Shown here: piece after piece, positions 44,250 through 57,358 of the stretch
Layout: each line of letters begins with the position of its first letter
Position numbering within the stretch: position 1 is the stretch's first letter
Program-made: the position numbers and the translations under genes
Notes under the pieces: generated by a model
Databases searched by the model: none
Told to the model about the DNA's origin: nothing
Seen by the model: the letters and a program-made list of their open reading frames with translations, nothing else
Assembly (NCBI RefSeq): GCF_003439125.1
Contig: NZ_QSUU01000005.1
Coordinates: 92,924 to 156,923, forward strand
Direction: 5' to 3'
Source: Collinsella sp. OM04-5
GTDB lineage: Bacteria > Actinomycetota > Coriobacteriia > Coriobacteriales > Coriobacteriaceae
Length of the DNA: 64,000 bases

Positions 44250-47200
44250 TCACGCTTCGCCCCAGAATCTATGCGTGTTGCGCAGGAGCTGTGCGGTTTT
44301 GCTCTCGGCGGCCGCAACGTCGGCCTCGTCAGCCTGCCAGGTCCAGTTGCCCGTGGCCACGCCCGGTACGTTCATGCGCGCGTCGTCGCCCAGCCCCAGG
44401 ACATCCTGCAGCGGCATCATCACCAGGGGAGCGTCGCTTGTCAGCGCGTCACTCATCAGCTTGGCTGCCACCTCAACACCGCTCGGCTCGTCGCCGCCCG
44501 CAAAGGAGCGCGTGCACCAACCCGCGAGCGTCGACGTGTCGTGAGTCGATGTGTACAGGATCTTGCCGGGCGTAGGGTGCACGCCGCAACGAACGTCGTA
44601 ATCGCTAAACTCCAGTACGTCCATACCGGGGAAGCCGCAAGTCGAAGCCATGGCGCGAACACCGGGCGTCAGGTAGCCCAGGTCCTCGGCGATAAAGTTG
44701 AGCGGCCCCAGCTCGTCATAGGCGGTCTGGAACAGGTCCTTGCCCGGGCCTGCCAGCCAACGCCCGTCGGCGCAGGCCTTACCCGCGGGAATGCTAAAGT
44801 AGCTGTGGAAGCCCAGGAAGTGATCCAGGCGCACGCGGTCGTAGAGCGAAAATGCACGACGCAGGCGATCCATCCACCAGCTATAGCCGTTCTGCTTCAT
44901 GTGGTCCCAGCGGAACGTCGGGTTGCCCCACACCTGGCCCTCGGGCGCAAAGTTGTCGGGCGGCGCACCGGAGATCTCGATTGCCTTACCGGTATCGGAC
45001 AACCAGAAGTTCTCGGGCTCGCTCCACGCGTCGGCCGAATCGTCGGACACGTACATAGGGATATCGCCGATGACCTCGATGCCCTTCTTGTGCGCATAGT
45101 TCATGAGCTCGCACCAGGCCAGGTCAAAGCGGTACTGCATGTACGCCTGAAGCTCGGCCTCGTCGTGGAAGCGCTTGTCGTCGATCAGATGCTCGTTGTA
45201 GCGCGCGACATCTGCCGGCCAATCGTGGCGCGATTCGCCCTCAAAGTACTTTTTGACGGCCATGTAGACGCAGTACTTCTCGAGCCAATCGGCATTGCGA
45301 TGTTTAAACGCGGTGTACAGCGGATCGGCATCCTCGCCGCCGCGGGCCTTCCAGGTCTCAAAGTCGGCTGCCAGCTCCTCGTGGCTCTCGGGCAGCAGGT
45401 CGATATTGCCTGCAAAGGCCGAAGGACCGGCGTAAGGGGAGCGGAAGAAGTCCGTGGGGTTGACAGGCAGGACCTGCCAGTAGCGCATGCCCATAGCGGC
45501 CAGATGATCGATAAAACGACGCGTGGGCGCACCGATTGTGCCGGGGTTGCCGTCGTCAGTCGGCACCGAGGTGATGTGGCACACAACGCCCGCACCGTGA
45601 TCGAGCGGCTCCTGCAGGCGCTGCTCGGCGTGGTGATAGATGATCGACGACCCCAGCGGATACAGATCGAGCGTGACCGTACCATTGTGGATCTCGCACT
45701 CGTGACCGCTGATCACGTCGCTCGCGCATTCGCCGAGCGCTGGAATCGTCACGCGGTGCGAATTGCGCAGGCTGCGGTTGATGATAACCGTCGCGGACTC
45801 GCCATCCTTGCCCGTGCGGTTGTATGCCAGTACCTCGTCGTTGAGCGCGAAGGCCTTGATCTCGCCGTCGATCATAAATGGCAGAGCGCGGCGCACAGCA
45901 GATGCGTTCTTGACGATCGCGAACGTATCGAAGTCGTGCAGGTCTTCCTTCAAAGGCAGCGTGCGGCGATTGCCCGGATCGGTCAGGCCCTCCAAGCCGT
46001 ACTCATCGCCGTAGTAGATTGAAGGCACACCGGGGAAGGTCATCTGCATGAGCGTGGCGAGCCAAAAACGGCTCTTGGCCAGGCCCATCGAGTTCTCGTC
46101 CAGGCGCCATTTGCTGCGCTCGCACTCGGGCAGCTGCGACTCGTCGGGGCCGCCGCCGAGCACCGAGATGATGCGCGGACGGTCGTGGCTCGAAAGCAGA
46201 TTAAGTGCGCAGGACAGGGCCTCACGGGGATAGTTCTCGCGCAGGGTTTCGATATCCTCGGCTGCCTGGTAGGCGTTCTTGTAGCCCATCAAAAAGCCGA
46301 TGACCATGTCACGGAAGGGGTAATCCATAGCAGAGTCCAGCTCGGAGCCCTGCAGGTAGCGGCGCAGATGACCGTAGCTAATCTTGTTGGAGGCGTCTTC
46401 CCAGACTTCGCCGAGCAACAGTGCATCAGGCTTTTCGGCAAGTACGGCCTTCTTGATCTCGGCCAGAAAGGCGTCGGAAAGCTCGTCAGCGACGTCCAGA
46501 CGCCAACCATGGGCACCGGCGCGCAGCCATTTGCGGATCACGCCGTCCTTGCCCAGGAGCTTCTCGCGCACCAGCTCGGACTTCTCGTTGATGGCTGGCA
46601 TGTTGCCAACGCCCCACCAGCAGTCGTACGAGCCGTCCTCGTGGAAGGTAAACGCATCGCGCCACGGCGAATCCTCGCTCTGCCAGGCACCCACGCCGGG
46701 GTAGTTGCCGTAGCGGTTGAAATAGATCGAGTCATCGCCTGTGTGGTTGAAGACACCGTCCAGGATGATGGAGATGCCCAGCTTCTCGGCTGCCTGGCAC
46801 AGCTCGGTAAAGTCCTGCTCGATGCCCAGAATCGGGTCGATCTTGGTGTAGTCGGCCGTGTCGTAGCGGTGGTTGCTCGCGGCTTCAAAGATGGGGTTGA
46901 AGTAGATGGCCGTAAAGCCCAGCTCGGCGATGCGGGGCAGGTCTTCCTGGATGCCCTTGAGCGAGCCGCCGTAGAAGTCCCATGTCTTGATGGAGCCGTC
47001 CTCGGCACGCTCGTACACGGGCGGCTCGTTCCAGTCCTCGACCATGCGGCGCTGGATTCCGTTGCGCGGTTTTTCGACCTCGGCCAGCGTGCGCTCGCGC
47101 CAGTGCTCGTCGCGGGCATAGCGGTCGGGGAAGATCTGGTACACCATGCCGCGCTCGTACCAGGCGGGGCGGTTGTCGCGGTGCTTATAGACGGTGATCT

Positions 47201-47546
47201 GGAACGAAGGTACCTCGGCGTAGTCGTAGGTTACGCCTTCGCCGCCGGTGCGGCCCTGCGGTGCGCCCAGGCGAACCTCGGGCTGGCCCTCGATATTGCA
47301 GATAAAGCTGTACCAGATAAGACAGGGCTCGGTACACTCAAGCTCTACGGAAAATATGCCGTCGCCTTCATGCGTCATGGGATACCGAGACTCGCCGATC
47401 TCATCGACCCAGGTGCGCAGGGTGAGCGTTGCCTGGTTGGGGTCGGCATCCTCCAAGATCACCGAGAGCGAAACGGAAGTGCCAGTGGTAACAGCGCCAA
47501 ACGGAGTGCGAAACTGCGGCAGGCGGCTGTTGTGTATCAATCTCAT
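44250..47546 (-). CDS. Bifunctional GH13 alpha-amylase/neopullulanase-like and GH77 4-alpha-glucanotransferase fusion
   Basis: 1098 aa in one uninterrupted frame. Residues about 1-125 form an N-terminal beta domain as in neopullulanases. The GH13 barrel follows (MVYQIFPDRYARDE; nucleophile Asp351 in GWRLDVADE, acid Glu380 in LLLGEVWEDA, LLSSHDRPR). A C-terminal beta domain ends near 640. From about 650 an MalQ domain begins with CHITSVPTDDGNPGTIG, with nucleophile Asp908 in RLDHFLGFHSY, acid Glu954 in FIAEDLGYL, and STHDTSTLAGW. Together the halves could hydrolyse and rearrange alpha-1,4 (perhaps alpha-1,6) glucans during glycogen or maltodextrin turnover. No signal peptide, so cytoplasmic. 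No strong ribosome site precedes ATG 47546; a TGGTAAAACG-type site lies 125 bp upstream. Confidence 0.9.
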   Translation of the reverse strand: MRLIHNSRLPQFRTPFGAVTTGTSVSLSVILEDADPNQATLTLRTWVDEIGESRYPMTHEGDGIFSVELECTEPCLIWYSFICNIEGQPEVRLGAPQGRTGGEGVTYDYAEVPSFQITVYKHRDNRPAWYERGMVYQIFPDRYARDEHWRERTLAEVEKPRNGIQRRMVEDWNEPPVYERAEDGSIKTWDFYGGSLKGIQEDLPRIAELGFTAIYFNPIFEAASNHRYDTADYTKIDPILGIEQDFTELCQAAEKLGISIILDGVFNHTGDDSIYFNRYGNYPGVGAWQSEDSPWRDAFTFHEDGSYDCWWGVGNMPAINEKSELVREKLLGKDGVIRKWLRAGAHGWRLDVADELSDAFLAEIKKAVLAEKPDALLLGEVWEDASNKISYGHLRRYLQGSELDSAMDYPFRDMVIGFLMGYKNAYQAAEDIETLRENYPREALSCALNLLSSHDRPRIISVLGGGPDESQLPECERSKWRLDENSMGLAKSRFWLATLMQMTFPGVPSIYYGDEYGLEGLTDPGNRRTLPLKEDLHDFDTFAIVKNASAVRRALPFMIDGEIKAFALNDEVLAYNRTGKDGESATVIINRSLRNSHRVTIPALGECASDVISGHECEIHNGTVTLDLYPLGSSIIYHHAEQRLQEPLDHGAGVVCHITSVPTDDGNPGTIGAPTRRFIDHLAAMGMRYWQVLPVNPTDFFRSPYAGPSAFAGNIDLLPESHEELAADFETWKARGGEDADPLYTAFKHRNADWLEKYCVYMAVKKYFEGESRHDWPADVARYNEHLIDDKRFHDEAELQAYMQYRFDLAWCELMNYAHKKGIEVIGDIPMYVSDDSADAWSEPENFWLSDTGKAIEISGAPPDNFAPEGQVWGNPTFRWDHMKQNGYSWWMDRLRRAFSLYDRVRLDHFLGFHSYFSIPAGKACADGRWLAGPGKDLFQTAYDELGPLNFIAEDLGYLTPGVRAMASTCGFPGMDVLEFSDYDVRCGVHPTPGKILYTSTHDTSTLAGWCTRSFAGGDEPSGVEVAAKLMSDALTSDAPLVMMPLQDVLGLGDDARMNVPGVATGNWTWQADEADVAAAESKTAQLLRNTHRFWGEA

Positions 47547-47672
47547 AGTACGGTCCAGTTCAATAGAATCATGGCCTGCTGGCCATGGGCTTTACGCACA
47601 GGATGTAAGTATATCTGTTGTACACAGGCTGTATAAACAACATCCGTTTACCATCGGCGAACGGTTGTCCTA

Positions 47673-47690
47673 GAAAATCGTTTTACCAAC
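47673..47690. promoter_or_regulatory. Candidate operator upstream of the GH13-GH77 gene
   Basis: The minus strand reads GTTGGTAAAACGATTTTC (47690-47673), nearly the same as TTTGGTAAAACGTTTTTAG ahead of the HAD gene (57635-57653). A second, weaker TGGTAAACGG half-like site occurs at about 47653-47644 (minus). The AAAACG-TTTT-like dyad is typical of LacI-family sugar regulators; no such regulator gene is in the window. Confidence 0.5.
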
Positions 47691-47701
47691 TATCCACAGA
47701 G

Positions 47702-47728
47702 AAGGGGCGCCCGGTTGGAGCGCCCCTT
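47702..47728 (-). terminator. Hairpin after glgA
   Basis: 9-bp stem AAGGGGCGC/GCGCCCCTT (47702-47710, 47720-47728) between the glgA stop and the next gene's leader. The T tract is poor, so read-through into the next gene is possible. Confidence 0.55.
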
Positions 47729-47764
47729 ACTTATGGTTTGATGAGGTTTTGGATCGTCTGTGGG

Positions 47765-50092
47765 CTAGCGGCGCTTGCGGGTGGCCGTTGCCTTGCGGAC
47801 GGACGTCTTCTTGGACGGCGCTTTTTTCTCGGTCGCGGCGGCGGGGGAGACCGGGGGCTCCTTGGCGGGTTCGACCTTAGGCTCGGCCTTTGCCGTAGCC
47901 TTCGGAGCGGTTTTCGGTGCCGGCTTGGGCTTTGCCTCGGGCTTGGGCTCCTCTTTGACGGCGGCGGGCTTAGCCTCTGCCTTGGCAGCTGCGGCCTTGG
48001 TCGTGGACTTCTTGGCCGTCGTCGTTGCGCGCTTGCGCGTGGTGGTCTTGGCGGTCGGCTTGGCCTCGACAGCTGCCTTGGCCTTAGGCTCGGCGGCTGC
48101 CTCCTTAACCTTGACGGCGGGCTTTGTGGCAGCCTTCGGAGCGGCCTTGGTCGCAGTAGCCTTGGCGGCCGTCGACTTCGTTGCCGTGGTCTTCTTGGCA
48201 GCTGTTACCTTCTTGGCGGTCGTTGTCGCCTTCTTGGCAGCGGTCTTTGCCGGAGCCTTGGCGGCCGGCTTGGCCTCAGCGATCTCGGCCTTTACCTCAG
48301 GAGCGACCTCGGGTTCGGCGGCCTTCTTGGCAGCTGCGGTGGTGCGCTTGCGCGAGGTCGTTGTCTTGACAGCGGTGGTCTTGGTTGCCGTCGCTTTGGC
48401 CGCTGTGGCCTTCTTAGCCGTCGTCTTACGAGTCGTGGTCTTCTTAGCTGCAGGCTTCGCAGCTGGCTTGACCTCGGACTCTGCCTCAGGAGCAGCCTCA
48501 GCCTTCACCTCAGACTCGGCCGTAACGGGCTCAGCTTCAACCGGCTTCTCTTCGGCCTTGGGCTCCTCAGCGGCCACCGGCTCAGCAACAGCCTCAGGCT
48601 CGTCGACAACAGCCAGCGGGCGCTCGATCTCCGGGTGCATAAAGAAGTACAGATCCAGATACTTGTCTGCCGAGCGCGTCCAGCTAAAGTCCTGGCTCAT
48701 GGCCTGCGTGACCAGCTGGTTCCAAGCGTCGCGGTTATCCCAGAACAGGCGCGCTGCGCGGAAGACCGCGTCGCCCATCTCGTCGCCGTTAAAGTTGCTA
48801 AACGAGAAGCCCGTGCCCTCGCCGGTAAACTCGTTATACGGGATCACGGTGTCCTTCAGGCCACCGGTCTCGCGCACGATGGGCAGCGTACCGTAGCGCA
48901 TGGCGATGATCTGCGACAGGCCGCAGGGCTCAAACTTCGAAGGCATCAGGAACATATCGGCGCCAGCGTACATGCGCTGCGACAGCGCCGGATCGAACTC
49001 GATGCGCGCGGCCATGGTGCCGGGGTACTTGTCCTGGAAGTAGCGCAGGCCGTCCTCGTAGTCGCGGTCGCCGGTACCCAGCACGGCCACCTGAACGCCG
49101 CCTGCCAGGATGCGGTCGAGCGCGTACATGACCAGGTCCATGCCCTTTTGGCGCGTCAGGCGCGTGACCATCACCATGAGCGGACGGTCGTCGCGAACCT
49201 CGAGCCCCAGTTCCTCCTGCAGCTTGGCCTTGCACACGGCCTTGCCGGAACGGTCCTCCACGGTGTAGTTGGCGGCAATGCGCTTGTCGGTCGCCGGATC
49301 AAAGCCCGCGACGTCGATGCCATTCAAAATGCCCTGCAGCGCATAGGAGCGCTCGCGCAGCACACCGTCCAGGCCCTCGCCAAACTCGGGCGTCTGGATC
49401 TCGTTGGCATAGGTGGGGCTCACCGTGGTAATGGCGTCGGCATAGCGAAGCGCGCCCAGCATGTAGTTGACGCTGCAAGCGTCGCAACGCAGCTGTGAGG
49501 CGGCCGCGGGAATATGCGCCACACCCAGGATGTCCTCCATCACGGTGTCGCTAAACTGGCCCTGGAACGCCACGTTGTGGATCGAGAACACGGTCTTGAC
49601 GCGGTCGTACAGCGGCAGGCCCTGGTAGAACTCGCGTAAGAACACTGGTGCCAGCGCCGTCTGCCAGTCGTTGCAATGCAGGATGTCGCACTCAAAGCCG
49701 GCCGGCAGGTGCTGCAGGCTCTCGGTGATGGCCTTGGAGAAGAACGCGAAGCGCTCGCCGTCGTCAAAAAAGCCGTACGGATAGTCGCGCGCAAAGTAGC
49801 GCTCGTTGTCCACGAACATATAGGTGACGCCGTCGCGCTCGAGTTTCTCAAGCCCGCAGTACTCGTTTCGCCAGCCTAGGCTCACGTAAAAGTCGGCAAA
49901 GTGCTCCATCTGCGCCTTGTACTCGTCCTTGATGGTGGCGTACTTGGGCACCATCACGATAACCTCGGCGCCGGCGCGCACAAGCGCCGCAGGCAGCGAG
50001 CCCGCCACGTCACCCAGGCCACCGGTCTTTACAAACGGTGCGCACTCGGCCGAGGCAAACACGATCTGCATCTTTTTGCTGGAATCAGCCAT
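47765..50092 (-). CDS. glgA: Glycogen synthase with a long histone-H1-like C-terminal tail
   Basis: 775 aa. Residues 1 to about 490 are a GT5 glycogen synthase: SAECAPFVKTGGLGDVAGSLPAAL at the N-terminus (KTGGLGD from residue 22), LHCNDWQTAL, and the C-terminal lobe with PSKFEPCGLSQIIAMRYG. Bacterial GlgA normally ends near 480. Here a further 285 residues follow: first a Glu/Pro-rich acidic stretch, then a strongly basic Lys/Ala/Thr/Pro region with many AAKKT, TTTRK and KAAPK units, like histone H1 C-terminal domains. GGGAGA precedes ATG 50092; ATG 50104 has no ribosome site. Last of five glg genes in order B-P-C-D-A. The tail could bind polyanions, glycogen-bound phosphate or nucleic acid; this is inference. 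Confidence 0.92.
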   Translation of the reverse strand: MADSSKKMQIVFASAECAPFVKTGGLGDVAGSLPAALVRAGAEVIVMVPKYATIKDEYKAQMEHFADFYVSLGWRNEYCGLEKLERDGVTYMFVDNERYFARDYPYGFFDDGERFAFFSKAITESLQHLPAGFECDILHCNDWQTALAPVFLREFYQGLPLYDRVKTVFSIHNVAFQGQFSDTVMEDILGVAHIPAAASQLRCDACSVNYMLGALRYADAITTVSPTYANEIQTPEFGEGLDGVLRERSYALQGILNGIDVAGFDPATDKRIAANYTVEDRSGKAVCKAKLQEELGLEVRDDRPLMVMVTRLTRQKGMDLVMYALDRILAGGVQVAVLGTGDRDYEDGLRYFQDKYPGTMAARIEFDPALSQRMYAGADMFLMPSKFEPCGLSQIIAMRYGTLPIVRETGGLKDTVIPYNEFTGEGTGFSFSNFNGDEMGDAVFRAARLFWDNRDAWNQLVTQAMSQDFSWTRSADKYLDLYFFMHPEIERPLAVVDEPEAVAEPVAAEEPKAEEKPVEAEPVTAESEVKAEAAPEAESEVKPAAKPAAKKTTTRKTTAKKATAAKATATKTTAVKTTTSRKRTTAAAKKAAEPEVAPEVKAEIAEAKPAAKAPAKTAAKKATTTAKKVTAAKKTTATKSTAAKATATKAAPKAATKPAVKVKEAAAEPKAKAAVEAKPTAKTTTRKRATTTAKKSTTKAAAAKAEAKPAAVKEEPKPEAKPKPAPKTAPKATAKAEPKVEPAKEPPVSPAAATEKKAPSKKTSVRKATATRKRR

Positions 50093-50116
50093 ATTGTCTC
50101 CCATGTTGCAATTCGA

Positions 50117-50182: not shown

Positions 50183-51310
50183 TTAACGTACGATGGTGGT
50201 GTCGGAAGTTAACGGAGCCTTGCCCAGCACCAGGATGTTCTCGGGCGTGCCGCGAAGCTCGGTGTTGGTGGGGACCACGTTGTTCTTGTCCAGAATGGCG
50301 TTCTCAACGCGTGCGCCGCTCTTGATGATGCAGCTCTGGTTGATGATCGAGTTGGTCACCGAAGCGCCTTCCTCGACCACGACGCCGCGCGACAGGATCG
50401 AGTTACGCACGGTGCCCTTGATGATGCAGCCGGCCGAGATGATCGAGTTGCACGCGTGGCTGCCGGTCGCATAGCGCGAAGGCGGCACGTCGTGAGCCTT
50501 GGTCAGGATCGGGCGCTCGGGGTCAAAGAGCTGATCGGCCACGGTCTGGTCGAGCAGGTCCATGCTGCGGCGGTACAGTGACTTCTCGCTAAACACGCCC
50601 ACGACCTCGCCCTTGTACTCGTAGCTGCACACGTCGATGTTGCCAAAGTCGCCCTGAAGTGCCTCGAGTAGGTCCAGATAGTCGGCAGCCTGGTAGTGGT
50701 CGATGATCTCGAGCAGCGTATCGCGGTTGACGATGCAGCAGTCCATAGAGGCGTTGTCGCCGTACACGACGCCAGCGCTCACGCCCGTCAGGCGGCCGTT
50801 CTCGTTTATTTCGAGTTTGGTCTCGTCATCGACGTTGCGCGTGGCCTTGCAGTACACCACGGTCATCTGGGCGCCGGAGTTCTCGTGCGCGTCGATGATG
50901 GTGTTGAGATCCATGTTAAAGATGATGTTGGTGCCCATCATCACGACATAGGGCTTATCCGAGCGCTGGAACAGCGTCTTGTTGGAGATGATGTCGCGCA
51001 GCAGGAAGCGCATGCCACCCTTGGTGGTGCCATACGCGTTGCCGGGCACCATGAACAGGCCGCCCTTCTTGCGGTCCAAGCCCCAGTCCTTGCCCGAGCC
51101 CACGTGGTCGATCAGCGAGCGGTAGTTTCCCGGCATGACGACGCCGACGGTCTTAATGCCGGCATTCATCATGTTGGACAGCGGGAAGTCGATCAGGCGG
51201 TAGCGGCCCAAAAAAGGAACGGACGCGATGGGGCGGTCCTTGAGCAGCACGCTGCCGTAGGTCGAAGAGTAGTTAGCGGTGATATAACCGATGGCCTTGC
51301 GATTGATCAT
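50183..51310 (-). CDS. glgD: Glucose-1-phosphate adenylyltransferase, GlgD subunit
   Basis: 375 aa. Non-catalytic or regulatory partner of GlgC in ADP-glucose synthesis. The N-terminal nucleotidyltransferase fold keeps VPFLGRYRLIDFPLSNMMNAGI, but the usual GGxGxRL loop is replaced by ANYSSTYGSVLL, as typical of GlgD. MMGTNIIFNMDL replaces the GDHLYRMDY block. A C-terminal left-handed beta-helix (NSIISAGCIIKGTVRNSIL) is present. The start at 51310 follows GGAAGGGGGA. It starts 5 bp after the glgC stop. Confidence 0.93.
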   Translation of the reverse strand: MINRKAIGYITANYSSTYGSVLLKDRPIASVPFLGRYRLIDFPLSNMMNAGIKTVGVVMPGNYRSLIDHVGSGKDWGLDRKKGGLFMVPGNAYGTTKGGMRFLLRDIISNKTLFQRSDKPYVVMMGTNIIFNMDLNTIIDAHENSGAQMTVVYCKATRNVDDETKLEINENGRLTGVSAGVVYGDNASMDCCIVNRDTLLEIIDHYQAADYLDLLEALQGDFGNIDVCSYEYKGEVVGVFSEKSLYRRSMDLLDQTVADQLFDPERPILTKAHDVPPSRYATGSHACNSIISAGCIIKGTVRNSILSRGVVVEEGASVTNSIINQSCIIKSGARVENAILDKNNVVPTNTELRGTPENILVLGKAPLTSDTTIVR

Positions 51311-51314
51311 CGGA

Positions 51315-52463
51315 TCATTCCCCCTTCCCGATAACGACGTCATTTCCAACGACGGCCGTATCCTTGGTGGTATCGACAGAGCCGAGCTTCACGCCCTCTT
51401 CGACCGTGGAGTTCTCGCCCAAAATTGCGCGGCAGATGTGCGCGCCGCTCTTAACGTGCGCACCCGGCAGCAGCACGGAGTCCTCGACCACGGCGCGTTC
51501 TTCGATGATGACATCGGTCGAAAGGATCGAGTGGCGAGCGGTGCCGTAAATCTTGCAGCCGTTGGAGACCAGGCAGTCGTCCAGGCGGCCGTCCGGGCCA
51601 ATGTAGTGCGGCGGACGCGTGGTGATGTTGGACATGATGGGGAAGTGCTTGTCGAACAGATCGAACTCGGGGTTGTTGCCCAGCAGGTCCATCGAGGTCT
51701 CGTGGAAGCTGGCGATGGTGCCGACGTCCTTCCAAAAGCCGTGGAACTCGTAGCTGTACAGGCGCTTGCCCTCGCCGAGCAGCTTGGGGATGATGTCCTT
51801 GCCAAAGTCGTGGCTCGAGCGCTGGTCCAGAGCATCCTCCTCGAGCGCCTCGATCAGCACGTCTGCCGAGAAGATGTAGATGCCCATGGACGCGAGGTTC
51901 GAATCGGGCTTATCGGGCTTCTCGGTGAACTTGGTGATGCGGCCGTCCTCGGGATCGGTGGTCAGGATGCCAAAGCGGCTGGCCTCCTCCCACGGCACGG
52001 GCATAACGCTCACCGTGAGGTCGGCGTTGTTCTCAATGTGCGTCTTGAGCATCTTGCGGTAGTCCATGCGATACAGGTGATCGCCCGAAAGAATCAGGAC
52101 GTACTTGGGGTCGTTAGCCTTGATGTAGTCGAGGTTCTGCGTAATGGCGTCGGCCGTGCCCGCATACCAGGCGCCACCGGTCTGCGTCTCGTACGGCGGC
52201 AGGATCGACACGCCGCCATCGCGGCTGTCCAGATCCCAAGCCTCGCCGGATCCCACGTAGGCATGCAGCAGGTAGGGGCGGTACTGCGTCAGAACGCCCA
52301 CCGTGTCGATGCCCGAGTTGGAGCAGTTAGAGAGCGAAAAGTCTATAATGCGGAACTTGCCACCAAAGCTAACCGCCGGCTTAGCGATCTTTTGGGTGAG
52401 TGCCCCCAATCGGCTGCCCTGTCCTCCTGCGAGGAGCATCGCGATGCATTCTTTCTTACTCAT
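51315..52463 (-). CDS. glgC: Glucose-1-phosphate adenylyltransferase, catalytic subunit
   Basis: 382 aa. Forms ADP-glucose, the donor for glycogen synthase. [22 protein letters not shown] is the nucleotide-binding loop, [16 protein letters not shown] and [16 protein letters not shown] are GlgC blocks, [13 protein letters not shown] carries the metal Asp, and [12 protein letters not shown] follows. The beta-helix C-terminus is intact. With GlgD it should form the heterotetramer seen in firmicutes that carry both genes. The ribosome site AGAAGGAG is 7-8 bp before ATG. Confidence 0.96.
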
Positions 52464-52503
52464 CGATTTCTCCTTCTGTCATCGATGTTCCTAAACCCAT
52501 TAG

Positions 52504-52534
52504 CGACGGGCGCGGCGCTCGGTCGCGCCCGTCG
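52504..52534 (-). other. Intercistronic hairpin between glgP and glgC
   Basis: 11-bp stem CGACGGGCGCG/CGCGCCCGTCG with a 9-nt loop, 38 bp after the glgP stop and 40 bp before the glgC start. No T run; probably processing or stability. Confidence 0.5.
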
Positions 52535-52571
52535 AGTAATGCCGTGCTGGCATAAGGGAGCTCGCGCGCCT

Positions 52572-54998
52572 TTACGCGTGCCAGATCTCGTCGCGGTACT
52601 CGCGAATGGTGCGGTCGCTCGAGAACCAGCCGGAGGAGGCAGTGTTGAGCAGGGCCTTGCGGTTCCAGGTCTCCTGGTCGCCATAGCTGCCGGTGAGCTT
52701 CTCCCACGCATCCACGTAGCTGCGGAAGTCTGCCATGACCAGGTCGGGGTCGTTGTTGTTCATGAGCTCGTTGTAGATGCTCTCGAAGTTGCCCGAAAGA
52801 CCCGCAAAGGTGTTGTCCTTGAGCTCGTCCATCACGCGGCCCAGGCGGTCGCGATCGTTGTTGAGCGTATCCCAGGCAAAGTAGCTGTTCGACGCCCAAA
52901 GCTGCTCGACCTCGGGAGCGGTCAGGCCAAAGATGGCCTCGTTCTCGCGGCCGGCCAGGTCGGCGATCTCGATGTTGGCGCCGTCGAGGGTGCCCAGCGT
53001 AATGGCGCCGTTCATCATGAGCTTCATGTTGGACGTGCCCGAGGCCTCCTTGCCGGCCGTGGAGATCTGTTCCGAGATCTCGGCGGCAGGGTAGATGAGC
53101 TGGGCGTTGCTCACGCGGAAGTTGGGGATAAAGCAGACCTTCATGACCTCGTTGACGCGCGGGTCGTTGTTGATGACGTCGGCCACCGAGTTGATCAGGC
53201 GGATGGTCTCCTTGGCAAAGGTGTAGCTCGAGGCTGCCTTGCCGCTAAAGATGAAGGTCGTCGGCGTCACGTGGAAGTTGGGATCGGCGATGCGACGGTT
53301 GTAGATGTCCATCACCTTCATGATGTTCATGAGCTGGCGCTTGTAGGCATGGAAACGCTTAACCTGAACATCGAAGACGGTGTTGGGGTCAATGACCAGA
53401 CCGGTCTCGGCCTTGACGTAAGCGGCCAGGCGCTCCTTGTTGGCGCGCTTGGAGGCACCCACGGCCTTCAGGAACTCGGTGTCGTCCTTAAACTCCTTGA
53501 GCTTCTCCAGCTCAAAGGCGTCCTTCAGCCAGCCATCGCCAATGGCCTCGGTCACGAGCTTGGCGTAGGTAGGGTTGGCCTCGGCAAAGAAGCGACGGTG
53601 CGAGATGCCGTTGGTCTTGTTGTTGAATTTCTCGGGCGTCAGGGCATAGAAGTCCTTGAGCACGATGTTCTTGATGATGTCAGAGTGGATCTTGGCCACG
53701 CCGTTGACGCTGTGGCTGCAGATCACAGACAGGTTGGCCATGCGAATCTCGCCGTCCCACAGGATGGCGGTCTGGCGCAGACGCTCCTGCCAGCCCTCCT
53801 GCGTGGTGTCGAACGACTCATGCCAACGACGGCTGATCTCGTCGATGATCTGGTACACGCGGGGGAGGAGCTTGGAGAACGTGCCGATGGGCCACTTCTC
53901 CAGAGCCTCGGGCAGGATGGTGTGGTTGGTGTAGCTCACGACCTGCGTCACGATGTTCCAAGCGTCATCCCACTCGAGCTTCTTCTCGTCGATGAGGATG
54001 CGCATGAGCTCGGGGCCGCACATGGCGGGGTGCGTGTCGTTGGTGTGGATGGCCACAAACTGCGGCAGCAGCTCCCAGTTCTCACCGTGCTCCTTCTCAA
54101 AGGTGTCGAGCAGGCTGTAGATGCCGGCCGAAACGAACAGGTACTCCTGCTTCAGGCGCAGCAGACGACCGTGCTCGCCGGCGTCGTTGGGGTAGAGGAT
54201 GGCGCTGATGGCCTCGGCCTCGGCGCGCTCGGCGTCGGCCAGGGCGTAGTCGCCGCGGTTGAAGGCCTCAAGGTCAAAGTGCTCCTCGACCGGCTCGGCG
54301 GCCCAGACGCGCAGCTTGTTGACGGTCTCGCCGGCATAGCCCACTACGGGGATGTCGTAAGGAACGGCCAGGATATCCTGCGTGTCCACCGTGCGGTAGA
54401 ATGTGCGGCCGTTCTCCTTAAAGCCCTCAACATGGCCACCAAGCTTAATGGTCACGGCCTTGTCCTGACGACGAACCTCCCAGGGATAGCCGTGGGTGAG
54501 CCACTCATCGGTGGCCTCGACCTGACTGCCGTTGACGATCTCCTGCTTAAACAGGCCGTAGCGGTAGCGCATGCCGTTGCCGTAGCCGGCAATGCCCTCG
54601 GCTGCCATGGAATCCAGGAAGCATGCGGCCAGACGGCCCAGGCCACCGTTGCCCAGCGCCGGATCGGGCTCCTGGTTCTCGATGACGGACAGATCAAAGC
54701 CCATGTCGTCGAGCGCCTCGGCGACCATGTCGCGCACACCAAAGTTGAGCAGGTAGTTGTCGAGCAGGCGGCCGATCAAAAACTCAATCGAGAAGTAGTA
54801 CACGCGCTTCTTGCCCTCGGCGGTGACGCGGGCGTCGCTTTTGGTGGCAACGGTGCGTGCCTTCTCGGCCACGAGCTTGGCCAGGGCGTTAAAGCGGTCC
54901 AGGTCGCTGGCGGCCTCGACGCTCTTGCCGCTGATGCTCATGACGGCATCGCGATAGAGCTCGGTAAACTCCTGCTTGTTGTCGAAGATCTTATTCAT
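52572..54998 (-). CDS. glgP: Glycogen phosphorylase
   Basis: 808 aa GT35 enzyme that releases glucose-1-phosphate from glycogen. Characteristic blocks: YYFSIEFLIGRLLDNYLLN, NGGLGRLAACFLDSMA, IHTNDTHPAMCGPELMRIL with the His-loop, and the PLP-binding Lys in EASGTSNMKLMMNGAITLGTLDGAN. Length is normal. The presence of a degradation enzyme between glgB and glgC means synthesis and breakdown are co-expressed. Confidence 0.96.
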   Translation of the reverse strand: MNKIFDNKQEFTELYRDAVMSISGKSVEAASDLDRFNALAKLVAEKARTVATKSDARVTAEGKKRVYYFSIEFLIGRLLDNYLLNFGVRDMVAEALDDMGFDLSVIENQEPDPALGNGGLGRLAACFLDSMAAEGIAGYGNGMRYRYGLFKQEIVNGSQVEATDEWLTHGYPWEVRRQDKAVTIKLGGHVEGFKENGRTFYRTVDTQDILAVPYDIPVVGYAGETVNKLRVWAAEPVEEHFDLEAFNRGDYALADAERAEAEAISAILYPNDAGEHGRLLRLKQEYLFVSAGIYSLLDTFEKEHGENWELLPQFVAIHTNDTHPAMCGPELMRILIDEKKLEWDDAWNIVTQVVSYTNHTILPEALEKWPIGTFSKLLPRVYQIIDEISRRWHESFDTTQEGWQERLRQTAILWDGEIRMANLSVICSHSVNGVAKIHSDIIKNIVLKDFYALTPEKFNNKTNGISHRRFFAEANPTYAKLVTEAIGDGWLKDAFELEKLKEFKDDTEFLKAVGASKRANKERLAAYVKAETGLVIDPNTVFDVQVKRFHAYKRQLMNIMKVMDIYNRRIADPNFHVTPTTFIFSGKAASSYTFAKETIRLINSVADVINNDPRVNEVMKVCFIPNFRVSNAQLIYPAAEISEQISTAGKEASGTSNMKLMMNGAITLGTLDGANIEIADLAGRENEAIFGLTAPEVEQLWASNSYFAWDTLNNDRDRLGRVMDELKDNTFAGLSGNFESIYNELMNNNDPDLVMADFRSYVDAWEKLTGSYGDQETWNRKALLNTASSGWFSSDRTIREYRDEIWHA

Positions 54999-55090
54999 AC
55001 GTTCCTTCCCCCGGGATGTTTCTCCCGGAACGGTTATGGCTTGTATCCTACGCCCCTGCGGGGCGGGTAATTGCAGTGGTAACGCTTTTG

Positions 55091-57358
55091 TTACGCTTTC
55101 CTGGCAGGAGCCTTAACAGCGCCTGTCTTGGCCTTGGGAGCAGCCTTTTTAGCGGTTGCCTTCTTGGCCGTGGTGGACTTAGCCGAAGCCTTGGCAGCGG
55201 GCTTGGCAGCCTTCGCCTTGGCCTTAGCCGGAGCCTTCTTAGCAGCTGCAGGCTTGGGCTTCACCGAGGACGTGCGCTTTTTGGGCGCAGCTTTGGGCTC
55301 CTCAACCACCGGCGGCTTGTAGCTGCTGGGACCGCGGCGCTTAAGCACTACGCCTGCCAGGCCGGGCACCTTCATCTCGATGGAGTCCATCTGCCCGTTC
55401 CAGGGATAGGGCTCGCTCGAGCAGGTGTAGGGCTCTTCACCGGCGTATCCGCTGCCACCAAACTCGGGACGGTCAGAATCGAAGATGACTTCCCAGTCGC
55501 CCTCGCGCGGCACGCCCACGCGGAAGCTCTCGTAGCTCGCTGGGTCAAAGTTGATCAGGATCACCAGGTCGTCATCGACGTCCTCGCCCTGACGCACAAA
55601 GCTCACGATGGACTGCCTGGAGTTGTCCGCGTCAATCCAGGTAAAGCCGTCGTCGGTGTAGCCGCGCTCGTACAGGGCGGGCTCGGCGGTGTACAGGTGG
55701 TTGAGCGCCTTGATAAACGCCTGATGATGGCGGTGTGTCTCGTACTCCTCGGTCAGGAACCACTGGATGGACTCGTAGTAGCGCCACTCAATAAACTGTC
55801 CGATCTCGTTGCCCATAAAGTTGAGCTTGGCACCGGGGTGCGTCATTTGGTAGAAGGCCAGCGTGCGCAGGCCGGCAAACTGGCGCCACCAGTCGCCCGG
55901 CATCCGGCCAATGAGCGAGCACTTGCCGTGCACGACCTCGTCGTGGCTCAGCGGGCAAATAAAGTTCTCGGTAAAGGCGTACATGATGGAGAACGTGAGC
56001 AGGCCGTGGTTGCCGGGGCGCCACGGAAAATCGGTCTGCATGTAGTGCAGGGTGTCGTTCATCCAGCCCATGTCCCACTTGTAGTGGAAGCCCAGGCCGC
56101 CGTCCTGCGGCGGATAGGTCACGAGCGGCCACGCGGTGGACTCCTCGGCCATCATCATCACGTCGGGGTAGTGCGCCTCTACAGCGCAGTTGACCTGACG
56201 GATAAACGCGCTGGCGTCCAGGTCCTCCTCGGTACCGTACTTGTTGAACTTCTTTTGGCCGGGATCGTCAATGCCAAAGTTGAGGTACAGCATGCTGGAC
56301 ACGCCGTCCATGCGAATGCCGTCCACGTGGAAGTTTTCGAGCCAGTACAGCACGTTAGAAACCAGGAAGGAGCGGACCTCGCCACGGGCGAAGTCAAACT
56401 TGTGCGTTCCCCAGTTGGGGTGAATCTCGTGCTCAAACAGCATGTGGCCATTAAAGGTGGCAAGGCCGTGGGCGTCGGCGCAAAAACCGCCGGGCACCCA
56501 GTCCATAATCACGCCGATACCTGCCTCGTGGCATGCATCGATAAAGTGCATGAGCTGCTGCGGGTTGCCGTAACGCGACGTGGCGGCGTAGTAGCCTGTC
56601 GTCTGGTAGCCCCAGGAGCCATCGAAGGGATGCTCCATAAGCGGCATGACCTCGATATGCGTGTAGCCCATGTCGCGCACGTAGTCCACGAGCTCCACCG
56701 ACAGGTCGTCGTAGGTATAGAACTCGCCGCGCTGCGCGGGGAAGGGATCCATGGGGCCGGGGTAGTTGCCGTACTCGTCGGGCTCGCCCTGCGGCGCGTC
56801 GCCGTGGCGCTTCCACGAGCCAATATGCACCTCGTAGATGTTAAGGGGCTGCGACATGTGGTTATGGCTGGCGCGGCGCTTGAGCCATGCGGCGTCGTTC
56901 CACTTGTAGCCATCGAGAGTCCACAGCACGCTCGCGGTACCCGGAGGGCACTCGGCCTTAAAGGCGTACGGATCTGCCTTGTAGAGCTTTTCGCCCTCGT
57001 TGGTCTCGATGAGATATTTATAGAGCTGGCCCTGCTCGGCGCCAGGAATAAAGCCTTCCCAAATAGCGCTCGTATGCACGGGTACCAGCGGGTTGGCATC
57101 CTCATTCCAGTCGTTAAATTCGCCAATGACATGGACACTCTTTACGTCGGGCGCCCAAACGCAAAAGCGCCAGCCGCGCGTACGGTTCTGCGTGTCGGGA
57201 TGCGCGCCCATCTTTTCCCAGCTGCGCTCCCACATACCAATGCCAAACAGGTAGACATCGTCCTTGGAGAGCTCCGGTGCGTGCGGAGCCGGTTTGCGGG
57301 TTGCGGGCTTTTTAGCCGTTGGCTTTAGCTTTGTATCGCTCACGTTTGATCCCATCAT
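55091..57358 (-). CDS. glgB: 1,4-alpha-glucan branching enzyme with a Lys/Ala-rich C-terminal tail
   Basis: 755 aa. A Lys/Pro-rich N-terminus of about 25 residues, then a CBM48 domain (RFCVWAPDVKSVHVIGEFNDWN), then the GH13 barrel: VMPLMEHPFDGSWGYQ, nucleophile Asp in VDGIRMDGVSSMLY, acid Glu in MMMAEESTAWP, and PLSHDEVVHGK. The C-terminal beta domain ends around 680. The last 75 residues (55091-55318) are basic and repetitive (AAKKAPAKAKAKAAKP, STTAKKATAKKAA), like the tail of GlgA. The start is uncertain: ATG 57358 or 57355, or GTG 57343, none with a strong ribosome site. First gene of the glg operon. Confidence 0.92.
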   Translation of the reverse strand: MMGSNVSDTKLKPTAKKPATRKPAPHAPELSKDDVYLFGIGMWERSWEKMGAHPDTQNRTRGWRFCVWAPDVKSVHVIGEFNDWNEDANPLVPVHTSAIWEGFIPGAEQGQLYKYLIETNEGEKLYKADPYAFKAECPPGTASVLWTLDGYKWNDAAWLKRRASHNHMSQPLNIYEVHIGSWKRHGDAPQGEPDEYGNYPGPMDPFPAQRGEFYTYDDLSVELVDYVRDMGYTHIEVMPLMEHPFDGSWGYQTTGYYAATSRYGNPQQLMHFIDACHEAGIGVIMDWVPGGFCADAHGLATFNGHMLFEHEIHPNWGTHKFDFARGEVRSFLVSNVLYWLENFHVDGIRMDGVSSMLYLNFGIDDPGQKKFNKYGTEEDLDASAFIRQVNCAVEAHYPDVMMMAEESTAWPLVTYPPQDGGLGFHYKWDMGWMNDTLHYMQTDFPWRPGNHGLLTFSIMYAFTENFICPLSHDEVVHGKCSLIGRMPGDWWRQFAGLRTLAFYQMTHPGAKLNFMGNEIGQFIEWRYYESIQWFLTEEYETHRHHQAFIKALNHLYTAEPALYERGYTDDGFTWIDADNSRQSIVSFVRQGEDVDDDLVILINFDPASYESFRVGVPREGDWEVIFDSDRPEFGGSGYAGEEPYTCSSEPYPWNGQMDSIEMKVPGLAGVVLKRRGPSSYKPPVVEEPKAAPKKRTSSVKPKPAAAKKAPAKAKAKAAKPAAKASAKSTTAKKATAKKAAPKAKTGAVKAPARKA

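Follow-up and report, generated by a model that had tools for sequence, protein, structure and literature searches.

We found that the glycogen synthase (GlgA) encoded in the window, which is the whole 64,000-nucleotide stretch of Collinsella sp. OM04-5 DNA analysed here, carries a long C-terminal tail resembling histone H1, and that this tail is real and under selection as protein. The strongest clue to its role, absent from the first-pass annotation of this DNA, is that the glycogen branching enzyme (GlgB) of the same gene row also has a tail rich in Lys, Ala and Pro. By analogy with the histone-like proteins of other storage granules, we see an even chance that the two tails are built-in, non-specific nucleic-acid anchors, which would keep newly made glycogen attached to the nucleoid and share it out at division. 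The features are collected in Table 1.

Table 1. Glycogen genes of the window and the parts of GlgA and GlgB (positions in the window).
Feature	Position	Strand	Basis
GH13 alpha-amylase and GH77 4-alpha-glucanotransferase in one 1098-aa ORF, no basic tail	44250..47546	-	Pfam, end charge
glgA, 779-aa glycogen synthase with C-terminal tail	47765..50104	-	ORF list, Pfam, PDB sequence matches
GlgA C-terminal end KKTSVRKATATRKRR	47768..47812	-	[STKR]V[SRA] motif among relatives
GlgA basic histone-H1-like Lys/Ala/Thr/Pro block, residues 546-779 (234 aa), net +48, predicted disordered	47768..48469	-	Composition, charge, AlphaFold2, codon selection
GlgA acidic Glu/Pro linker, residues 491-545 (55 aa), net -14	48470..48634	-	Charge count
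GlgA GT5 catalytic part, residues 1-490, net charge -21	48635..50104	-	Pfam, PDB matches, charge count, AlphaFold2
glgD-like GlgC paralogue, no basic tail	50183..51349	-	Pfam, end charge; name glgD inferred
glgC, no basic tail	51315..52463	-	Pfam, end charge; name inferred from Pfam class and place
glgP, glycogen phosphorylase, no basic tail	52572..54998	-	Pfam, end charge
glgB, glycogen branching enzyme, longest frame 800 aa	55091..57493	-	Frame list, Pfam
GlgB Lys/Ala/Pro-rich C-terminal tail, 82 aa, net +24	55091..55339 (stop codon included)	-	Scan, charge count, relatives
Short basic stretch before CBM48 of GlgB TKLKPTAKKPATRKPAPHAPE, residues 54-74 of the longest frame	57272..57334	-	Translation

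A single open frame encodes GlgA, and both domains of a GT5 glycogen synthase are found in it by Pfam, the starch synthase catalytic domain (GT5) at residues 13-251 (PF08323, 2.8e-81) and a GT1 domain at residues 303-446 (PF00534, 7.2e-12). The translation also contains FVKTGGLGDV and FEPCGLSQ, which we take to be signs of this family. GT5 structures in the PDB, which include bacterial and plant glycogen/starch synthases, align to residues ~12-490; in the ordinary GlgA of entry 2QZS, residues 1-477 of the 485-residue chain match residues 12-490 and no tail is present. Together with the AlphaFold2 model, these matches bear out the first-pass annotation, which had let the GT5 part end normally near residue 490 and the open frame continue. 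The chain runs ~289 residues past the catalytic domain, beyond the early end that is usual, though not defining, for GT5 enzymes, and the tail is an addition to the family, not a loss of the family's domain. The remark in the annotation that bacterial GlgA usually stops near residue 480 agrees with 2QZS and with a set of 39 loci that have no coriobacterium in the title: 38 show no tail (≤18 aa past the same point), and the other one (L058) is cut by a contig end.

From residue 491 onward, GlgA consists of 29% Ala, 20% Lys, 15% Thr, 11% Glu and 11% Pro. The tail had been described as 285 residues at positions 47768-48622, with an acidic Glu/Pro section followed by a basic Lys/Ala/Thr/Pro section, and the composition and the charge of the two parts agree with this. 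The description of it as full of AAKKT and TTTRK units slightly overstates the repeats; both are present in two copies each, along with four copies each of AAKK and KPAA. The layout is shared among relatives, in which the tail begins with a net negative 50-residue stretch in 48 of 56 and is positive over the remainder in 56 of 56. AlphaFold2, run with an alignment of 19 sequences in which the tailed ones are that of the window and those of six relatives, predicts a confident fold ahead of the tail and disorder within it, with pLDDT below 50 at residues 1-8 and 499-779, at least 70 at nearly all other residues, and no secondary structure at residues 499-779. Linker histone H1 has a winged-helix globular domain, and Pfam gives no match to this domain in GlgA, so the likeness to H1 is one of composition only.

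The glgA gene lies among six genes of the same direction (glgB, glgP, glgC, glgD-like, glgA and the GH13-GH77 fusion), which we infer to form one operon. When every frame of 100 aa or more in the window was scanned, a 50-residue stretch containing ≥9 Lys and ≥8 Ala turned up in GlgA and GlgB alone; in the four remaining row proteins, the final 60 residues have a net charge of -4 to +1. Within the row, basic tails are confined to the two polymer-building enzymes, and this confinement argues for anchoring to nucleic acid. GlgB contains the CBM48 (PF02922), amylase catalytic (PF00128) and amylase C-terminal (PF02806) domains of a branching enzyme, and its tail holds 22 Lys and 25 Ala. Its true start is probably the ATG near residue 46-47 of the longest frame.

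GlgA was found in all 43 genomes of the genus that were searched, and the frames measured from stop to stop are 612-986 aa long in 42 of them, while the remaining one (575 aa) has a contig end inside the tail. Among the database matches to GlgA, the best 120 of 7965 are 764-802 aa long, and the nearest named loci (L001-L020, from Collinsella aerofaciens, Collinsella sp. and uncultured Collinsella) are 95-99% identical in the catalytic part. Tails were measured in 85 genomes, and a quick maximum-likelihood tree was built from 84 of them (G033 left out) and six further loci (L036, L037, L041, L045, L050 and L052). In the clade containing Collinsella (SH-aLRT 100), a tail of 105-469 aa is present in 57 of 57 rows, which include G249, with its tail cut by a contig end, and G043, with an ambiguous base. 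This conservation, which also favours the anchor, answers the concern of the first-pass annotation that the tail might be absent in sister strains. The other concern it raised, a frameshift at the border between the domains, was rejected along with any assembly fault there, in view of the long frames across the genus and the codon evolution of the tail (dN/dS 0.15-0.25), since dN/dS values below 1 indicate that the reading frame of the tail is in use.

Outside this clade the tail is patchy, and this speaks against the anchor. The sister pair of the tailed clade (two genomes, genus code g5) has no GlgA tail, and outside family code f1 the tail is present (64-296 aa) in 7 and absent in 18 of 25 measured genomes, a fraction that is not a rate because these 25 were picked largely for long frames. 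The absences indicate that the tail is not needed for glycogen synthesis. The state of the tail changes at least five times on the tree, in which branches are long and the counts do not separate gain from loss. One of the seven tailed genomes outside f1, G315, belongs to a separate lineage and its tail also ends in an SVS motif, so common descent or transfer is possible. Among 31 matches from the phylum outside the order, none of the eight GlgA with the longest frames has a Lys/Ala-rich tail, and seven end within 10 aa. The eighth (L323, G579), which belongs to a different class of the phylum, has a 451-aa extension that is not Lys/Ala-rich and looks like a second enzyme. In G043 (L101/L161), the ambiguous base within the tail is followed by an Arg/Ser/Gly-rich composition, as if another frame were read.

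The selection on the tail was examined in 22 close GlgA sequences. The catalytic part has a dN/dS of 0.040; the tail gives 0.252 over its aligned columns, 0.155 over the gapless ones and 0.132 over the last 20, these tail figures resting on low-complexity alignments with many gaps. At Lys/Arg codons of the tail, 32 of 44 single-base variants are synonymous vs 10.9 expected (p ~1e-10), Lys-Arg interchange is seen in 0 variants vs 7.6 expected, and charge-losing variants number 12 vs 23.7 expected; for uncharged residues, 229 of 391 variants are synonymous vs 130.1 expected, and for Asp/Glu codons 13 of 48 vs 10.7 expected, all expected counts coming from a simple assumed mutation model in which transitions are favoured. 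Basic residues are thus held most, uncharged residues less and acidic residues hardly. The retention of Lys/Arg codons is in keeping with an anchor on nucleic acid, while the retention of uncharged residues and the absence of Lys-Arg swaps indicate that selection is not for charge alone, which tells against it. These values also bear on the idea that the tails are weakly selected low-complexity sequences, free to expand and drift, which persist only for the sake of solubility or as harmless ballast. The wide range of tail lengths, the many indels even between near relatives (224-313 aa among 21 close genomes) and a dN/dS ~4- to 6-fold higher than in the catalytic part would fit such drift; however, dN/dS is well under 1, synonymous variants are in excess at basic codons, no loss is seen in the 57 clade rows, and tails confined to two of six row proteins and ending in a recurrent motif are hard to reconcile with it, so that we regard ballast as very unlikely.

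The motif at the end of the tail, which the first-pass annotation did not contain, takes the form [STKR]V[SRA] within the last 19 aa in 43 of 55 GlgA tails (G043, with the ambiguous base, and G249, with the contig end, are left out) vs 27 of 662 control windows, a post hoc count because the pattern was loosened once the sequences were known. The first, stricter pattern had been found in 18 of 56, with 3 of a second form and 35 with none, and it missed the TSVRKAT form. Outside the closest group, the motif is present in 22 of 34 tails. While its recurrence is in favour of the anchor, its lack in 12 of 55 tails counts against it; four of the 12 share VPKAT or IPKIT, and eight have neither.

The ends of GlgB were read in 60 of 187 matched genomes and, besides these, in 20 further genomes. 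The part beyond the core has a net charge of at least +5 in 59 of 60 relatives, the exception being G027 at +3, which again supports anchoring; it is at least 40 aa long in 53 of 60 (median 85, range 23-186), and 51 of 60 ends pass a stricter composition rule (Lys ≥15%, Ala+Thr+Pro ≥35%). All nine measured genomes that lack a GlgA tail have a basic end on GlgB (23-164 aa). Among the 20 further genomes, GlgB of the same type has basic tails of 51-272 aa in G137, G338, G127, G390 and G366, while that of G250 stops after 19 aa with no Lys/Ala tail, which weighs against the anchor. GlgB ends within 26 aa in eight genomes of family codes f3 and f6 (G203, G257, G272, G279, G333, G342, G368 and G386), the 22 end residues of G272 being themselves basic, and is tailed in G271 and G366, which are also coded f3. 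Partial GlgB matches in G204 (f3) and G054 (f13) show no Lys/Ala-rich end, and no Lys/Ala tail is present in the second GlgB-like genes of G127, G137 and G338 or in the sole match of G246. The sole GlgB match of G307 is of another type, 37-40% identical to the query, and has a Lys/Ala tail, as does GlgB of the window; GlgA of G307 is tailed too, and this tail on a different type of GlgB argues for the anchor. In L278 and L279 (G283 and G276), the GlgB frame continues into a GlgC-like protein, which by eye is an apparent GlgB-GlgC fusion.

The acidic-then-basic layout of GlgA suits self-association as well, which is a point against anchoring to nucleic acid. The acidic part of GlgA could pair with the basic tails of GlgA and GlgB, two enzymes that act on the same polymer, and build an enzyme condensate at the glycogen surface without any role for DNA. 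The charge of both kinds of tail agrees with such an electrostatic scaffold, but the acidic codons of GlgA are nearly free to change while the basic ones are held, and GlgB keeps its basic tail in genomes with tail-less GlgA; we consider the scaffold unlikely. Tail length in GlgA does not follow that in GlgB (Spearman 0.23, p 0.12, n=48), which is a further point against the anchor, and a mutual compensation of the two lengths was rejected on the same figures.

In the single-contig relative G001, we searched the DNA for A[AT]KK[AT], K[AT][AT]K[AT] and [AP]K[AP][AT]K, which gave 25, 19 and 30 matches vs 8, 16 and 21 for the reversed patterns in the same order. The 68 loci around the matches (206,510 bases including overlaps), a pattern-led sample rather than a proteome census that does not include glgA of G001, contain nine ORFs passing the loose rule: GlgB, DNA topoisomerase I (TopA), L31, RsgA, Rho, L306, L182, L249 and L318. 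The L306 ORF has no Pfam match. Under the stricter rule, applied to the first 38 loci, GlgB, topoisomerase I and L31 remain. RsgA is a ribosome-associated GTPase, and the basic stretches found by pattern are mostly on nucleic-acid proteins (TopA, L31, RsgA and Rho), in line with an anchor of the same nature. Using the whole GlgA tail as the query gave GlgA as the sole match in G001 at E 0.01 (150 of 328 candidates scored), which does not favour the anchor. At L257 (G001:C1:1115200-1118100), ribosomal protein L31 has a long Lys/Ala/Glu-rich C-terminal extension.

Lysine-rich disordered tails bind many polyanions, and the tails may instead bind ribosomes or RNA, polyphosphate, or phosphorylated glycogen. 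Basic stretches on L31 and RsgA in G001 and the presence of PPK1 in 39 of 42 genus genomes would fit a partner of this kind, while the GlgA tail persists in G017 (214 aa), G025 (114 aa) and G027 (164 aa), none of which has a PPK1 or PPK2 match, and this weakens polyphosphate as an obligatory partner. Nothing in the analysis speaks against RNA, which may be a partner; taken as a whole, binding to one of these other polyanions is quite unlikely in our estimate. The proposal of the first-pass annotation that the tail tethers glycogen synthesis to a polyanion thus fits the selection on basic residues, the tailed GlgB and the nucleic-acid proteins of G001, and loses ground for polyphosphate; among the polyanions it offered, these sequences favour DNA or RNA.

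Nucleic-acid anchors of storage polymers have precedents. PhaF of Pseudomonas and PhaM of Ralstonia/Cupriavidus have a histone-like C-terminal region, disordered in PhaF, that binds DNA and spreads PHA granules (PMC13052382, PMC3574117), and AlgP of Pseudomonas aeruginosa has a long KPAA-type histone-H1-like tail required for the spacing of polyphosphate granules (PMC9239181). Actinobacterial topoisomerase I has a lysine-repeat C-terminus on a core that itself acts on DNA (PMC7398561), unlike the core of tailed GlgA; its AKKT/AKKA tail is of the same kind as that of GlgA, and one is present in G001. As far as these sources describe them, PhaF and PhaM resemble GlgA in being storage-polymer proteins with a histone-like lysine-rich C-terminal region, and differ in that their tail is on a separate granule-binding protein, whereas in Collinsella the polymerase and the branching enzyme themselves bear it and the polymer is glycogen; AlgP, as described there, is a stand-alone DNA-binding protein on polyphosphate granules, whereas the GlgA tail, which contains much Thr and Glu as well, forms part of an enzyme. 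GlgA has the histone-H1-like lysine-rich C-terminal region of these proteins, with its predicted disorder. Pfam finds no phasin domain in GlgA (glycosyltransferase domains only) or GlgB (CBM48/amylase domains only), and with no phasin or related non-catalytic granule-binding N-terminal part the tailed enzymes are not members of the PhaF/PhaM/AlgP type, although they may work like these granule tethers.

By this analogy, the catalytic domain would hold the growing glycogen, and the disordered lysine-rich block would bind the phosphate backbone of DNA as the regions of PhaF, PhaM and AlgP are considered to do, separating granules on the nucleoid. The acidic Glu/Pro spacer may keep the basic block away from the acidic enzyme surface, a role that the almost free change of the acidic codons makes less likely. 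Many tails on each particle could keep nascent glycogen on the nucleoid and spread along the chromosome, and tethering of this kind would keep clumping or polar exclusion in check and give each daughter cell a share of the store. In its full form, that the polymerase and branching enzyme of Coriobacteriales are a dedicated partitioning tether, each particle being nucleoid-bound from the first glucose and evenly inherited, and that GlgA gained the tether more than once, we hold the proposal only tentatively, at somewhat under an even chance.

The placement and sharing of bacterial glycogen are little known. GlgA-GFP collects at the old poles in csrA mutants of E. coli and, to a smaller degree, in the wild type (PMC4836754), and in the mutants glycogen accumulates there and the replicative lifespan is shortened; such a tether would solve this problem. 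In the open-access literature, titles and starts of abstracts gave no description of a tailed GlgA or GlgB. In a Chem Rev review of prokaryotic alpha-glucan enzymes, the words 'nucleoid' and 'DNA-binding' are absent from 300,000 of the 445,374 characters; Collinsella goes unnamed in a review of glycogen in gut commensals; and the main text of a 2025 review of bacterial organelle positioning, which treats carboxysomes, magnetosomes, PHB and polyphosphate granules, has 'glycogen' 0 times. The histone-like tether is a known device, and its fusion to glycogen enzymes was not found described in these sources. If the anchor is true, glycogen would join the storage polymers tethered to the nucleoid, its tether being part of the enzymes that make it, and the tails suggest that evolution has fitted one portable device to several storage polymers. 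With both of its glycogen-building enzymes tailed, this human gut genus offers a ready-made system in which removal of the tails could separate position from catalysis.

Several smaller features of the gene row were also seen. Of the two adjacent GlgC-type genes (50183-52463, - strand), whose listed frames overlap by 35 bases, the one at 50183-51349 scores weaker as a nucleotidyltransferase, as in GlgC/GlgD pairs. Long antisense open frames lie opposite glgA (47618-49498, + strand) and opposite glgC/glgP (51291-55070, + strand), and both are probably by-products of codon bias.
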